From the NCBI GenBank assembly GCA_026393755.1, contig JAPKZO010000028.1:62001-126000 (forward strand): DNA of 64,000 bases, in the 5' to 3' direction. Below the pieces are notes generated by a model. That model had not been told where the DNA came from, ran no database searches, and was given only the letters and a program-made list of their open reading frames with translations. Shown piece after piece: positions 2,197 through 8,803 of the stretch. The position numbers and the translations under genes are program-made. This DNA is from Acidobacteriota bacterium. GTDB taxonomy: Bacteria; Acidobacteriota; Vicinamibacteria; Vicinamibacterales; JAKQTR01. Position 1 is the stretch's first letter. Each line of letters opens with the position of its first letter.

Positions 2197-3585
<1,389 letters not shown>

Positions 3586-3606: not shown

Positions 3607-3657
3607 ATTGCAGAAATTGCAACCGTTTTGGTGGCTCCGGATTGCAGTTTCTGCAAT
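3607..3657 (+). promoter_or_regulatory. paired TTGCA palindromes, probable enhancer sites
   Basis: Site 1 is TTGCAGAAATTGCAA (3608-3622). Site 2 is ATTGCAGTTTCTGCAAT (3641-3657), a perfect dyad around TTT. Their centres are 34 bp apart. They lie 170-220 bp upstream of the -24/-12 promoter at 3828, the usual position for NtrC-type upstream activating sequences. The adjacent NtrC-family regulator is the obvious candidate binder. The exact reverse complement of site 1 recurs at 13218. Confidence 0.7.
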
Positions 3658-3871: not shown

Positions 3872-5293
3872 ATGGAGCCGTCCGCCTTTAACGTCCGGGT
3901 GCCGCTGTCGACGGGCGACGTGTTCTTGATGAACACGTTGACTGACGCCCAGGTGGTGGTTTCGGCGGACGCGGCGCGGTTGGTCGACCGGCCAGGCGAT
4001 ACCTGCGAGGACACGGTACATGCCGCTGCCGACGTTCGCGACGCGCTCGCGACGTTTGCCGAACATGGATTCCTGGTCCAGGATCGCACCTCCGAACAGG
4101 CGGCGCTCGCGCGGCGTTTCCACGAATTCCGCGAAGACACCTCACAGCTGCGGATCACGATTCTGACCACGCTGCAGTGCAACTTCGCGTGCGACTACTG
4201 CTATCAAGGCGACCATGCGGCGGCCGGACGTCCGGCCCCGAAGATGTCGCTCGAGACATCTGCCCGGGTAGCCGAGTGGATCGCGGGCCAGCTCGACGCG
4301 GTCAATCCGCGCCGCCTGGTGCTCACCTTCTTCGGGGGCGAACCGCTGCTGAACACGCCGGCGATGATCGATATCGCCGGCCGTTGCTGGCAGGCGACGC
4401 AGGCCAGAGGCGTGCGGCAACTGGTCAGCATCATCACGAACGGCCTCCTTCTTTCTCCCGCGATCGTCGATCGGATGCTGCCGTTCGGGCTGACCGGCGT
4501 CAAGGTGACGCTCGACGGCGATCGCGCCACGCACGACCGGGTGCGCCCGGCGCGCGGCGGCGAGGGCACGTTCGATCGCATCATCGCCAACATCCGGCGC
4601 GTGGCGGACAGAACGCCTGTCGCGATTGGCGGCAACTTCGACGGCTCCACTGCCGGGAGTTATCCCGCGCTGCTCGATTTTCTCAAGAGTCAGGATTTCG
4701 CCGGCCGCATCTCGAAGGTCACATTCAAGCCCGTGATCGCTCCGCGTTCGGCGGAGGCGCCCGCTGGGTCGATTCCACTCACCGACGTGGGAACGGACCG
4801 CCCGTCGCAGAACGGATCGTGCATGAGCGTTGCGGGCAGCGGCGGCGCGTCGGCGTGCGACAGCTGCCGCTTCGCCGACGACCAGATGGCGACGTTGCGC
4901 GAAGAAACGAAGCGGCACGGCTTCTCCACCGCCGACGGCGTACACATGGGCCCGTGCGAGCTGTACCGCCGGCACTCGCACACGATCGGACCCGACGGGT
5001 CGCGCTACGCATGCCCTGGATTCACTGGCGCCAACGCGCTGGCGATTGGCAATATCGCTGCCGGCGAAAACGGCGTGCTGTCTGAGGCAGCCTCACAAAT
5101 TGAGCGGCTCGCGCCCTGGCACCAGTGCGGAGACTGCTCGTTCGTTCCGGTGTGCGGGGGCGGCTGTGCGGTCGCTTCCCACGCGGAACTTGGCGACATG
5201 AAAGCGCCGTCATGTCACAAGCGTGCGTTTGAATCGGCGTTGATTGCGCTGGCGGAAGATACCGCCGGCGCCATAGCAGGAGGGTTACAATGA
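3872..5293 (+). CDS. radical SAM/SPASM peptide-maturase
   Basis: The protein has 473 residues when begun at ATG 3872. An in-frame TTG at 3767 lies upstream of the sigma-54 promoter and is rejected. The N-terminal 90 residues (FNVRVPLSTGDVFLMNTLTD) resemble the leading region of SPASM peptide maturases. The radical SAM cluster motif is C103-NFA-C107-DY-C110. The C-terminal SPASM region has Cys362, Cys381, C419-GD-C422, C428-GGG-C432 and Cys448, enough for two auxiliary Fe-S clusters. Such enzymes install carbon-thioether or carbon-carbon crosslinks in short ribosomal peptides, or mature sulfatases. The stop overlaps the ATG of a 29-codon gene with two Cys and a Trp, and no sulfatase is nearby, so peptide modification is the better reading. 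The exact chemistry is unknown. Confidence 0.88.
   Translation: MEPSAFNVRVPLSTGDVFLMNTLTDAQVVVSADAARLVDRPGDTCEDTVHAAADVRDALATFAEHGFLVQDRTSEQAALARRFHEFREDTSQLRITILTTLQCNFACDYCYQGDHAAAGRPAPKMSLETSARVAEWIAGQLDAVNPRRLVLTFFGGEPLLNTPAMIDIAGRCWQATQARGVRQLVSIITNGLLLSPAIVDRMLPFGLTGVKVTLDGDRATHDRVRPARGGEGTFDRIIANIRRVADRTPVAIGGNFDGSTAGSYPALLDFLKSQDFAGRISKVTFKPVIAPRSAEAPAGSIPLTDVGTDRPSQNGSCMSVAGSGGASACDSCRFADDQMATLREETKRHGFSTADGVHMGPCELYRRHSHTIGPDGSRYACPGFTGANALAIGNIAAGENGVLSEAASQIERLAPWHQCGDCSFVPVCGGGCAVASHAELGDMKAPSCHKRAFESALIALAEDTAGAIAGGLQ
5278..5284 (+). promoter_or_regulatory. strong ribosome binding site of the 29-codon peptide gene
   Basis: AGGAGGG lies 5 nt before ATG 5290, inside the last codons of the radical SAM gene. 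It is a near-perfect Shine-Dalgarno sequence at ideal spacing, clearly stronger than those of the neighbouring genes. This implies high translation of the very short reading frame that follows. Confidence 0.85.
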
Positions 5294-5379
5294 GGATCAC
5301 AGTGGTGAAGCGGGGCGAGAAGCCCCCGATCGATTTCTGCCCGTGGATGATCTGCGTCCCACCAGAGGACATCAACTAG
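5290..5379 (+). CDS. 29-residue putative RiPP precursor peptide
   Basis: ATG 5290 overlaps the TGA of the radical SAM gene (ATGA) and is preceded by a strong ribosome binding site. The product starts MRITVVKRGEKPP; residues 14-25 are IDFCPWMICVPP, followed by EDIN and a stop. The first part is short, charged and leader-like. The second is a hydrophobic core with C17 and C22 (CX4C), W19, F16 and four prolines. No Fe-S or zinc fold can be built from so few residues, so the Cys/Trp core is most simply a substrate for the adjacent SPASM enzyme. Its size is close to PqqA and the shortest SPASM substrates. NCBI families for short radical-SAM peptides (for example CbpA) exist, but I cannot test membership. 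Confidence 0.8.
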   Translation: MRITVVKRGEKPPIDFCPWMICVPPEDIN

Positions 5380-6980
5380 CGCGGCAACCATGCACACCCT
5401 GGGAGGGGGCAGGCAGTTGCTCCGCCCGCGCGATCTGTATCGCCTCGGGCATCGTGTGGGCGCTGTCTGCCCTCGGGTGCGGGACCTCCACGCCGCCCGC
5501 CCCGCCATCGGGACCGGCGACCATCGTCATCGGCGTGCCGCAAAGCCGCCAGATCGATCCATCGCACAGTATTCGCGCACTCGCCAATACCCTCGCCCGC
5601 GAACGGCCAACCGGCAGTGACGCCAGCGGCAGAACCTCTCCGCGACTCGTCGACAGCTGGTCCGAAACCGACAACGGCCTGACCTGGCGGCTTGTGCTCA
5701 AGCCGCAGTTGCAGTTTCAGGACGGCACCAGGCTGACCGCCGCCGACATCAAGCGCCATCTCGATCAGGCACGCGATGAAGCACGCGACAATCGATCCGG
5801 TCAGACGCTCTCGGTGTGCGTCTCCGACATCAGGGAGACGGCGGTCGAGGGCGATCGCGAGGTGGTCGTCCGGCTCAACCGCCGCTGCGCGTTCCTGCTT
5901 GACGATCTGGTCATGACCGTCGCGCACCAGACAGCCGACGACAGCCCCGCGGTCGGGACCGGCCCGTTTGCAATCACATCGGCGACGAAGGACGAGATCG
6001 TGCTGGACGCGAACCCCTACTACTATCTTGGCAAGCCGGCAATCGGCCGGGTGATCGTGAAGGCGTATGACACGCTGAGAACGGCCTGGGCCGAGATGAT
6101 GCGCGGGCGCGTTGACTTCCTGTGGGATGTCGGGCCGGACACCGCCGAGTTCCTCCGTGACCAGTCGGGCGTTCAGGTGCGTTCGTATCTGAGCTACTTC
6201 GCCTACACGATCGTCATGAACTCGGGGCGGCCGGTCTTCCGCGATCGGGCAGTGCGGCGCGCCTTGAACCTCGGCGTCGACCGCGCCGAACTGGTGCAGC
6301 AGGCACTCAAGGGCCAGGGCCGCGCCGGCGTCGATGCGATCTGGCCGTCGTTCTGGGCGCGCGATGACAGTGTGCCTGCGTGGCGGTACGATCCTGCCGA
6401 AGCGGCCGGCCTGCTTGACGCCGCCCGCCGCAGCGGCGGCCTTCCGCCGAGCAGCTCGAAGGCCGGAGCGCCAGTCGTCGAGTTCACATGCCTCTTGCCG
6501 GAGGGCTTCACCATCTACGAACGCCTGGCGTTGCTGGTGCAGCGCCAGCTGCGGCTGGTCAACGTCGAAATGCGGATTGAGGCGCTGCCCGCAGACGTCT
6601 ACAACGGGCGCATCAACGCGGGCGATTTCGACGCGGTGCTGACGAACCTGGTCGGCGGGCCATATCGGACGATTCATTACCAGTTCTGGCATTCGCCGGG
6701 AACGTCGAAGCGCTTGAATTTCTGGGGCTACCGGGATGCGGCGGTTGACGCGGCGCTCGAGCAGATGCGCAACGCGCCGGACGATCACGGCACGCGCATG
6801 GCGATGAGGGCGTTGCGTCTCGCCTTGCGCGAGAACCCGCCGGCCATCGTGCTTGCGTGGAGCGACTCGGTTCAGGCCGTCAGCCGCCGGTTCGAACTGC
6901 CCGAGGGCGCGGCGGGCCGGGACGCGCTACACACCCTGAGCCGGTGGCGCATCCGAACTCCCGGAGGCGTGCCGCCATGA
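5343..6980 (+). CDS. family 5 extracytoplasmic peptide-binding lipoprotein
   Basis: This 545-residue SBP_bac_5 type protein is related to OppA/DppA periplasmic binders of oligopeptides. Family signatures are a SWSETDNGLTWRLVLKP-like segment, FQDGTRLTAADIK, and PAVGTGPFAITSATKDEIVLDANPYY-like spacing broken by a conserved Gly-Pro-Phe. A long basic n-region precedes the hydrophobic segment ICIASGIVWALSALGC, so export and lipidation at Cys46 are likely, although the lipobox is not ideal. The only in-frame start (GTG 5343) lies inside the peptide gene, giving a 37-nt overlap and probable translational coupling. No permease or ATPase follows. A kinase does, so it probably acts as a sensing partner rather than an importer subunit. 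The real start is uncertain. Confidence 0.8.
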   Translation: MDDLRPTRGHQLARQPCTPWEGAGSCSARAICIASGIVWALSALGCGTSTPPAPPSGPATIVIGVPQSRQIDPSHSIRALANTLARERPTGSDASGRTSPRLVDSWSETDNGLTWRLVLKPQLQFQDGTRLTAADIKRHLDQARDEARDNRSGQTLSVCVSDIRETAVEGDREVVVRLNRRCAFLLDDLVMTVAHQTADDSPAVGTGPFAITSATKDEIVLDANPYYYLGKPAIGRVIVKAYDTLRTAWAEMMRGRVDFLWDVGPDTAEFLRDQSGVQVRSYLSYFAYTIVMNSGRPVFRDRAVRRALNLGVDRAELVQQALKGQGRAGVDAIWPSFWARDDSVPAWRYDPAEAAGLLDAARRSGGLPPSSSKAGAPVVEFTCLLPEGFTIYERLALLVQRQLRLVNVEMRIEALPADVYNGRINAGDFDAVLTNLVGGPYRTIHYQFWHSPGTSKRLNFWGYRDAAVDAALEQMRNAPDDHGTRMAMRALRLALRENPPAIVLAWSDSVQAVSRRFELPEGAAGRDALHTLSRWRIRTPGGVPP

Positions 6981-8803
6981 GGACACTGCGCGTCCGCTTT
7001 GCCGTCATGCTGGCGACGGCCGCCGTCGTGCCGTTGCTGACGTACGGCGCGGTGTCGCTCTATTCGCTCAATGTCGGAACGCGCCGCACCGTGGTGGAGA
7101 GCCACCTCAATGTCGCGCGCCAGGTCGCCCAACAGGTGCGGCGGTACATCTCCACCAACCTCCAGATTCTCCAGGCCCTGGCCGCGGACCTGGAGAACAC
7201 CAGCCTCACGCCCCAGCAGACCGATCGAATCCTGAAGAATTACGTGCTGCGTTTTCCGGAATTCCGCGAACTCACGGTCGTCGACGGCTCAGGCAACGCC
7301 GTCGCAACCAGCCGGCTGGGCCTCCCGGCTGTGTTGAAGGCAGCTGAGTTCACTCAACTCACAGCGGACTGGACTCCGCGGAGCGGGCAGGCGGCCGGGA
7401 GGATTATCGATAGGGTCCGGATGTCGCACGTGTTCGTCGACGGCGACATGCTGCCAACCACGCTGGTGGTCGCGCCGATTGCGGCGAGCGGCCAGCAGGG
7501 GGCCGGATGGCTGGTGGGCGAATTCAGCATTGAGGAACTGTGGCGAATGGTCGGCCGCATCAGCTTCGGCGCACAGGGATACGCACTGGTTCTTGGTCCG
7601 GGCGGCGAACTGCTCGCGCATGGCAATCCGGACGAGCGGTCGAGAGTGGCCACCGACGCCGTCGTGCGCACACAGGGCGGCCGGATACAGGGCAGCGATC
7701 CAACGATCAACGCCATCATCGACGCCCTGCATGGGCAGAGTACCGACGCACCCGTCGTCAGGGAAGACGAACGCCTTGTCGGTGGTCGGATGCTTGCGGT
7801 CGGCATCGACATTCCGGACCTTGGCTGGACGGTCGTGGTCTCGCAGCCGACCCGCGAAGCATACGCGATTGCTGACCAGCTGCAGAATCAGCTCGTCGGC
7901 GCCATCAGCCTCGCGTTGCTGATTATGATCCTGGTCGGCTGGGTGTGGGGGCGATCGCTCATCAGGCCCATCACGGCGCTCATTACGGGCACGCAGGCAA
8001 TCGCCAGTGGGCGACTCGATGAGCGCGTCGCCATCGAGTCGAAGTCGGAACTCGGCACGCTGGGGGCCGCATTCAACGGGATGGCCGATCGCCTGGTGGA
8101 GCTGCAGGCAGACGTCCGAAGGCAGGAGCGCCATGCGATGTTCGGACGTGTGGCGGCAGGCCTTGTGCATGACCTGTCGCACCCGTTCAAGAACGTTCAG
8201 AACAACTGCCGGCTGATACTCAAGATGCACGACGACCCGGAGTATCGCGAGATGTTCCGCCGGACCGTCGACCGCGAGTTCGGCACGATCAGGCGCGTGT
8301 TCGAAGATCTCCGGAACATTGCGCGCCCCATGCCGCTCGAGCGCTTTCCGCTCGATCTCAACACCCTGGTGGCAGATATCGGCGAGTCGATGCGCGCCAA
8401 CGCCGCCACCGCCGGCGTGGCGCTCAGTGTGGAACTGGGCCGCGCACGCCTGTTCATGCTGGGCGACATGTTCGCGCTCGGCCGCGTGTGCCGAAATCTG
8501 GTGCTGAACGCGATCGAGGCGACCCCTCCGCGGGGAAGGATCGTCATGGACGCAGCGGCGATCGGCGGGAAGGTCCGGATTCGCGTGAGCGATACCGGGT
8601 GCGGCATCGCGCCGGACCGGATCGCCACCGTGTTCGAGGATTTTACGACGACCAAGCGTCAAGGCCTCGGTCTGGGCCTGGCCATCGTCAAGAAGATCGT
8701 CGAACAGTTGGGAGGGAACGTCAGCGTGACGAGCGAGGTCGGGCGGGGCACGACGTTCGTCCTGGAATTCGGGCAGATCCCGCCGCCTGAGACGGCCGGA
8801 TAG
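6977..8803 (+). CDS. membrane sensor histidine kinase (dCache-HAMP-HisKA-HATPase)
   Basis: This 608-residue kinase starts at ATG 6977, overlapping the stop of the binding-protein gene (ATGA). A transmembrane helix at about 8-28 is followed by a periplasmic dCache-like region to about 305. A second helix (about 310-332), a HAMP segment and the H-box LVHDLSHPFKN with phospho-acceptor H398 come next. The HATPase domain shows DTGCGIAP and GLGLGLAIVKKIV. H-boxes of the HDLxxP type are common in NtrB-like partners of sigma-54 activators. It is the last gene of the peptide operon and probably phosphorylates the regulator at 2197. The preceding binding protein could present a ligand, perhaps the mature peptide, to its periplasmic domain; that part is inference. 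Confidence 0.9.
   Translation: MRTLRVRFAVMLATAAVVPLLTYGAVSLYSLNVGTRRTVVESHLNVARQVAQQVRRYISTNLQILQALAADLENTSLTPQQTDRILKNYVLRFPEFRELTVVDGSGNAVATSRLGLPAVLKAAEFTQLTADWTPRSGQAAGRIIDRVRMSHVFVDGDMLPTTLVVAPIAASGQQGAGWLVGEFSIEELWRMVGRISFGAQGYALVLGPGGELLAHGNPDERSRVATDAVVRTQGGRIQGSDPTINAIIDALHGQSTDAPVVREDERLVGGRMLAVGIDIPDLGWTVVVSQPTREAYAIADQLQNQLVGAISLALLIMILVGWVWGRSLIRPITALITGTQAIASGRLDERVAIESKSELGTLGAAFNGMADRLVELQADVRRQERHAMFGRVAAGLVHDLSHPFKNVQNNCRLILKMHDDPEYREMFRRTVDREFGTIRRVFEDLRNIARPMPLERFPLDLNTLVADIGESMRANAATAGVALSVELGRARLFMLGDMFALGRVCRNLVLNAIEATPPRGRIVMDAAAIGGKVRIRVSDTGCGIAPDRIATVFEDFTTTKRQGLGLGLAIVKKIVEQLGGNVSVTSEVGRGTTFVLEFGQIPPPETAG

Follow-up and report, generated by a model that had tools for sequence, protein, structure and literature searches.

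Quorum-sensing circuits of the LuxP-LuxQ-LuxO type, described in Vibrio, combine a periplasmic binding protein, a membrane kinase whose outer domain is Cache/PAS-like and a sigma-54 NtrC-type regulator. PqqA and MftA are precursors to small redox cofactors. Thioether formation is described for PapB, which makes Cys-Asp/Glu thioethers and tolerates spacings of 0-6 (PMC9413430), and for QhpD, which also links Cys to Asp/Glu (PMC5682303); sactipeptide enzymes form the bond at the alpha carbon of Ser, Thr and Ala acceptors (PMC5682303). Streptococcal RaS-RiPP systems are under cell-density control (PMC8092268, PMC13361665), the signal being an unmodified SHP peptide read by Rgg. In CuaD-CuaS-CuaR, a solute-binding protein (SBP) acts as the sensor of a two-component system, a precedent for an SBP in this role (PMC10384115).

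We analyzed a window of 64,000 nucleotides from an acidobacterial contig (JAPKZO010000028.1) of the order Vicinamibacterales. It carries a 29-residue precursor gene in a locus that resembles several of these systems in part. The layout of binding protein, kinase and sigma-54 NtrC-type regulator is that of LuxP-LuxQ-LuxO, but the SBP here belongs to family 5, the module has no phosphorelay protein, and the signal, as proposed, would be a modified peptide encoded in the same operon. With CteB (SCIFF), PapA/PapB and QhpD the locus shares an RRE-like domain, a radical SAM core and a SPASM domain, as well as an invariant Cys donor, followed by a downstream Asp/Glu (C-X4-D/E) in the relatives outside the window's family. 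It differs from ranthipeptide and thioether systems in that nearly all precursors carry a single Cys behind a leader of 16-20 residues, the acceptor is non-acidic in the window's family, and a dedicated SBP-kinase-sigma54 module is present. As in the streptide and tryglysin RaS-RiPPs, the precursors are short and served by a radical SAM/SPASM enzyme, but in the present locus the signal may be the modified product. CuaD-CuaS-CuaR, for its part, senses cellobiose, involves no RiPP, and uses an unrelated SBP family and regulator.

We put at about 0.48, close to one in two, the probability that this radical-SAM-modified peptide serves as its own signal for a LuxPQ/LuxO-like circuit. The peptide-maturase pair is a new, unnamed family among a known type of radical SAM RiPP; the unusual part is its wiring to the SBP-kinase-sigma54 circuit, and this tie is also the most informative part of the locus. 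Among the papers searched, we found no matching radical SAM RiPP with SBP/kinase signaling, nor any in Vicinamibacter, and no described peptide signaling system for Acidobacteriota. The features of the locus are as follows.

2197..3585, + strand: NtrC-type sigma-54 response regulator (receiver, AAA+ with GAFTGA, Fis-type HTH)
3608..3622, no strand: near-palindrome, candidate regulator binding site, TTGCAGAAATTGCAA (C28:65608-65622)
3642..3656, no strand: perfect palindrome, candidate regulator binding site, TTGCAGTTTCTGCAA
3828..3844, + strand: sigma-54 (-24/-12) promoter, TTGGCccggcggTTGCA, score 12 of 13
3872..5293, + strand: peptide maturase (N-terminal RRE-like domain, radical SAM core with CX3CX2C, seven-Cys SPASM domain)
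5290..5379, + strand: precursor peptide gene, 29 aa (leader 1-16, invariant Cys17, variable acceptor position 22)
5343..6980, + strand: SBP_bac_5 solute-binding lipoprotein (PF00496, E=2.6e-59; start codon uncertain; lipobox Cys codon about 5478-5480)
6977..8803, + strand: sensor histidine kinase, dCache-HAMP-HATPase (ATGA overlap with the SBP gene; HisKA under the cut-off)

The precursor gene and its conserved core

The product of the gene at 5290-5379 (+) is MRITVVKRGEKPPIDFCPWMICVPPEDIN. The original prediction, made from the letters of this DNA, had described an AGGAGGG ribosome binding site 5 nt upstream of the ATG, a start overlapping the maturase stop, a very short leader, and Cys17, Trp19 and Cys22 in the core, all of which we found as described, the overlap being an ATGA. 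About 13 residues do precede the core, but they are not all charged, only R2, K7, R8, E10 and K11 being so. The peptide of the sister genome is identical at 26 of 29 residues, and the two genes differ by five synonymous and three nonsynonymous changes (pN/pS of 0.15; 0.41 when pooled across 36 pairs). So few residue differences alongside five synonymous changes indicate that 5290-5379 is protein-coding.

A peptide gene lies directly 3' of the maturase in 53 of 60 nonredundant loci and in 53 of the 54 with assembled downstream sequence, the exception being a shortened peptide gene; this bears out the predicted coupling of the precursor to the radical SAM maturase upstream. Six of the seven loci without a peptide end at or near a contig end. 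The seventh is L020/L040, where an intact maturase is followed by a good ribosome binding site and an MKIT start as in the family, and then by unrelated sequence, a lost precursor. Profiles built from half of the peptides as seeds recovered 40 to 42 of 49 held-out loci (E<1e-3) and matched none of the shuffled ORFs. Judged by these comparisons, the ORF is a genuine gene, beyond chance, and it almost certainly encodes a real precursor of a modified peptide.

No profile of NCBIfam, Pfam or PHROGs matched the window peptide, and the same was true of relatives' peptides, six searched against NCBIfam and one against PHROGs. The CbpA family, suggested earlier as a place to look, did not fit: no model matched the peptide, and the maturase reached 66 bits against the CbpB model TIGR04163, for which the cut-off is 375. 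Rfam contributed no matching family within the window.

The family peptides have the form MKIxVIKK...KPxxFC-P-W-x-x-D/E. The Cys17 position is invariant in the 59 Cys-type peptides (59/59), and Trp is found at C+2, the position of Trp19, in 37 of them, the other 22 carrying F, V, L, Q, S, T, I, C or A. Outside the window's family, the Cys+5 position is always acidic (39 Asp and 15 Glu, 54/54), whereas in the five members of the window's family it is Cys, Ser, Ala or Thr and acidic in none (0/5). The sister genome carries Ser as residue 22, and the next genus has Ala, Thr or Cys there. Among the three core residues singled out by the original prediction, only Cys17 is a family feature. Since Cys22 is not conserved, a Cys17-Cys22 pair or cross-link cannot be the shared feature and was rejected as such, and a Trp-centered ring was rejected as a family rule because Trp19 is replaced in 22 of 59 relatives. 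In the window, Cys22 is best read as occupying the acceptor position of a C-X4-X unit, a position that varies.

Several loci carry near-identical precursors in tandem, up to a maximum of four in L023, where the four genes and a related LWPFLVDYPP peptide occupy offsets 155-800 after the maturase. At 11 loci (L007, L015, L019, L021, L023, L024, L026, L027, L058, L064, and L083), just 3' of the maturase, the Cys-type precursor is preceded by, or alternates with, a Cys-less, B-type companion peptide (GTLRPWLVDV or VSPWLVDVP type); one such companion matched PHROGs at chance level only (E=0.25).

The maturase and the predicted cross-link

A longer maturase ORF from 3767 is unsupported, since relatives start at the Met encoded at 3872. 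The protein is 81% identical to that of the sister genome. Of 198 related genomes, 68 gave a maturase match at E<=1e-20, strong in 66 cases; a genome-contig collection contained 52 loci, many of which come from those same genomes. Sampling the phylum evenly (396 genomes) gave 18 matches, every one within Vicinamibacterales, and the known loci are all confined to this one acidobacterial order, with one maturase per genome and many genomes of the order carrying none. Viral contigs and plasmids yielded no close relative, only distant radical SAM enzymes (among the matches listed, 20-34% identity for viral and about 23-27% for plasmid sequences).

Nine Cys residues of the maturase are invariant (C103, C107, C110, C362, C381, C419, C422, C428, and C432) and C448 is nearly so. 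Three further conserved Cys (C317, C329, and C332; CX11CX2C), which could hold a further cluster, sit in a stretch without resolved model structure that separates the radical SAM core from the SPASM domain. In the AF2 model (pLDDT 80), the part ahead of the radical SAM core, about residues 7-64, folds as a bbb-aaa domain. The nearest solved maturase, by sequence (E=1e-28) and by fold, is CteB, a thioether-forming enzyme, to which residues 4..466 align (Z 24-25; Z 25.0 at rmsd 4.6 over 384 residues); the alignment begins at residue 4 and so includes the RRE-like domain. The top NCBIfam match is TIGR04280, the geopeptide maturase, with 234 bits across almost the whole model, which is far under the curated cut-off of 400 and compares the two systems by the maturase alone. 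The next models are CefB, TIGR04463, FlmE/OhkG, PapB and QhpD. The enzyme is placed by these matches within the thioether-rich part of the SPASM maturases, outside every named family.

The invariance of Cys17 and the Asp/Glu found at Cys+5 in 54 of 54 peptides elsewhere make a thioether from Cys17 to residue 22 the most likely modification, as the most economical guess; this agrees with the thioether among the products originally proposed. We lean, by a modest degree, toward a thioether being formed from Cys17 at all. The alternative, of lower probability and yet a serious one, is that no thioether is made and the maturase carries out an epimerization, a C-C ring or another change, Cys being needed otherwise. 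The loss of Asp/Glu in the window's family without a matching loss in the maturase would fit such chemistry, as would the B-type peptides, which retain PWLVD without a Cys; it accords less well with Cys being the only fully invariant core residue and with the matches of the maturase to models of thioether-forming families (CefB, TIGR04463, PapB, and QhpD). Six maturase columns differ in the window's family, with no obvious charge change that would compensate for the lost acidic residue.

A co-inherited module with a sigma-54 promoter

The gene order is fixed across Vicinamibacterales: NtrC-type regulator, maturase, peptide(s), SBP_bac_5 lipoprotein, and dCache-HAMP histidine kinase, with a divergent LPD gene on one side and a convergent HU gene on the other. 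The Response_reg, Sigma54_activat and HTH_8 domains of the regulator exceed the Pfam cut-offs, and its position is shared by 47 related loci. Among the 66 genomes whose maturase is clear, 62 encode the periplasmic half of the kinase as well; in the remaining four the maturase lies at or near a contig end. Such nearly identical genome sets indicate that the module is inherited and lost as a unit; the SBP, the dCache kinase and the sigma-54 regulator are a single co-inherited set. The conserved module has no exporter, protease or immunity gene, and no permease, outer-membrane receptor or oxidoreductase gene. Without a permease gene between SBP and kinase, the SBP looks like a sensor part. The original prediction had drawn no link from the peptide to the binding protein, the kinase or the sigma-54 regulator.

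A GG-N10-GC promoter scoring at least 9 was present 5' of the maturase in 49 of 51 loci, against 8.7 expected from shuffles, and a score of at least 10 was reached in 37 loci, against 1.9 expected. The LPD-NtrC intergenic region, used as a control, showed no excess of sigma-54 promoter scores. The near-palindrome at 3608-3622 recurs with small changes in L032 and L033. A second regulon target was sought through the palindrome TTGCAGN3CTGCAA. Apart from the copy in the locus, the genome has a single perfect one, immediately 5' of dnaX and without a sigma-54 site, and this candidate was rejected. One-mismatch copies were hardly more frequent than in the reversed control, and the genome palindrome search did not reveal a further operon under the regulator. 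Established at the level of sequence are the conservation of the peptide gene, its occurrence together with the maturase, the constant module, the promoter for sigma-54 and the identity of the domains.

The peptide as candidate ligand

The signal and lipobox of the SBP are found in the window and in many relatives. Its true start is uncertain because there is no obvious ATG, the sole listed start being a GTG inside the peptide gene (TTG in the sister genome). Its AF2 model has a pLDDT of 91, and its best solved relatives are AppA by profile and NikZ by fold, NikA also being close; AppA was crystallized with a nonapeptide. Peptide core distance correlated with SBP distance when maturase distance was controlled (r=0.31, p=0.001), when maturase and LPD were (r=0.30, p=0.001), and when LPD was (r=0.44), in partial Mantel tests that are liberal for sequences sharing a tree, as those here do. 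The correlation was weaker with the kinase and absent with the regulator, and leader distance did not follow SBP distance (r=0.05, p=0.34). The SBP is the fastest-evolving of the proteins, which gives it more resolution in such comparisons. In the family that lost the acidic core residue, the SBP also lost basic residues that are kept elsewhere: R472 became Q in three of four members (the fourth is gapped), R245 became S or G, and H87 became Q. This is a single evolutionary event. From these patterns the peptide is a likely ligand of the SBP; that the modified product is the ligand of the SBP-kinase set we regard as an even bet.

In the proposed circuit, the short basic leader (consensus MKIxVIKK...KP) would be bound by the N-terminal RRE-like domain of the maturase, which would then cross-link the core at Cys17, most probably as a thioether to residue +5, with a loss of 2 Da. 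The acceptor would be Asp/Glu in most of Vicinamibacterales and Cys, Ser, Ala or Thr in the window's family. The modified peptide would be trimmed and exported, and the product would bind the neighboring lipoprotein SBP, from which the signal would pass to the dCache-HAMP kinase and on to the NtrC-type regulator. The regulator would activate the sigma-54 promoter of the maturase-peptide-SBP-kinase operon. Because it would thereby switch on the operon encoding both peptide and sensors, the peptide signal would be self-inducing, and the constant position of the peptide gene between the maturase and the binding protein with its kinase suggests a new kind of bacterial peptide signal. We propose tentatively, with somewhat less confidence than in the general reading, that a Gram-negative circuit of three components has the cross-linked peptide as its autoinducer and induces the synthesis of that peptide across the order, mostly in uncultured soil and water bacteria. 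What counts against the peptide-signal model is a module with no exporter or protease gene to bring the product to the periplasm, the absence of the Asp/Glu acceptor in the window's family, whose maturase is otherwise conserved, and the failure of the palindrome search to find a second target of the regulator.

Three other roles for the product were weighed. The modified peptide could be an output, an antimicrobial or other effector, whose production is turned on when the SBP, kinase and regulator sense dipeptides, nickel or another nutrient. SBP_bac_5 proteins take many ligands, the solved relatives including NikZ and NikA besides AppA, and tandem near-identical precursors (up to four, in L023) are common in bacteriocin arrays; still, we consider this role unlikely, given a module without immunity or exporter gene, a core distance that follows SBP distance, and an SBP and kinase that are kept with the maturase everywhere and never swapped. 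A peptide metallophore, its Cys and acidic residue binding a metal and a NikA-like SBP importing or sensing the complex, would account for the invariant Cys with Asp/Glu at +5 and for the NikA/NikZ-like fold. The module, however, lacks genes for a permease and for an outer-membrane receptor, the window's family no longer has the acidic residue, and the B-type companions are without Cys, which leaves this role improbable.

The least probable of these, a very long shot, is a precursor of a small redox cofactor in the manner of PqqA or MftA. The very short precursor, the single maturase per genome and the order-wide conservation would agree with it, but no aromatic residue is invariant, several loci have multiple precursors, an oxidoreductase gene is lacking from the module, and many genomes of Vicinamibacterales do without the system. 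A PqqA-like precursor, which would have an invariant Glu/Tyr pair, was rejected: there is no conserved Tyr, the conserved residues being the Cys and position +5. To return to the peptide as its own signal, the locus joins a radical-SAM peptide and an entire sensing circuit, whose promoter is recognizable. Should the peptide be the ligand, Acidobacteriota would have a peptide signal spanning an order, and the role of a radical-SAM product could be read clearly from its operon; together, the promoter and the five genes make a small reporter system open to direct test.

Eleven genomes had the kinase only: eight cases were at contig ends, one was a weak match in another class, and two looked like decayed remnants of the module. 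In the first remnant (L140, genome G116), the regulator lies beside a kinase split between two frames, and the maturase, peptide and SBP are missing. In the other (L141, genome G123), the first 47 residues of the regulator abut the rear part of the kinase.
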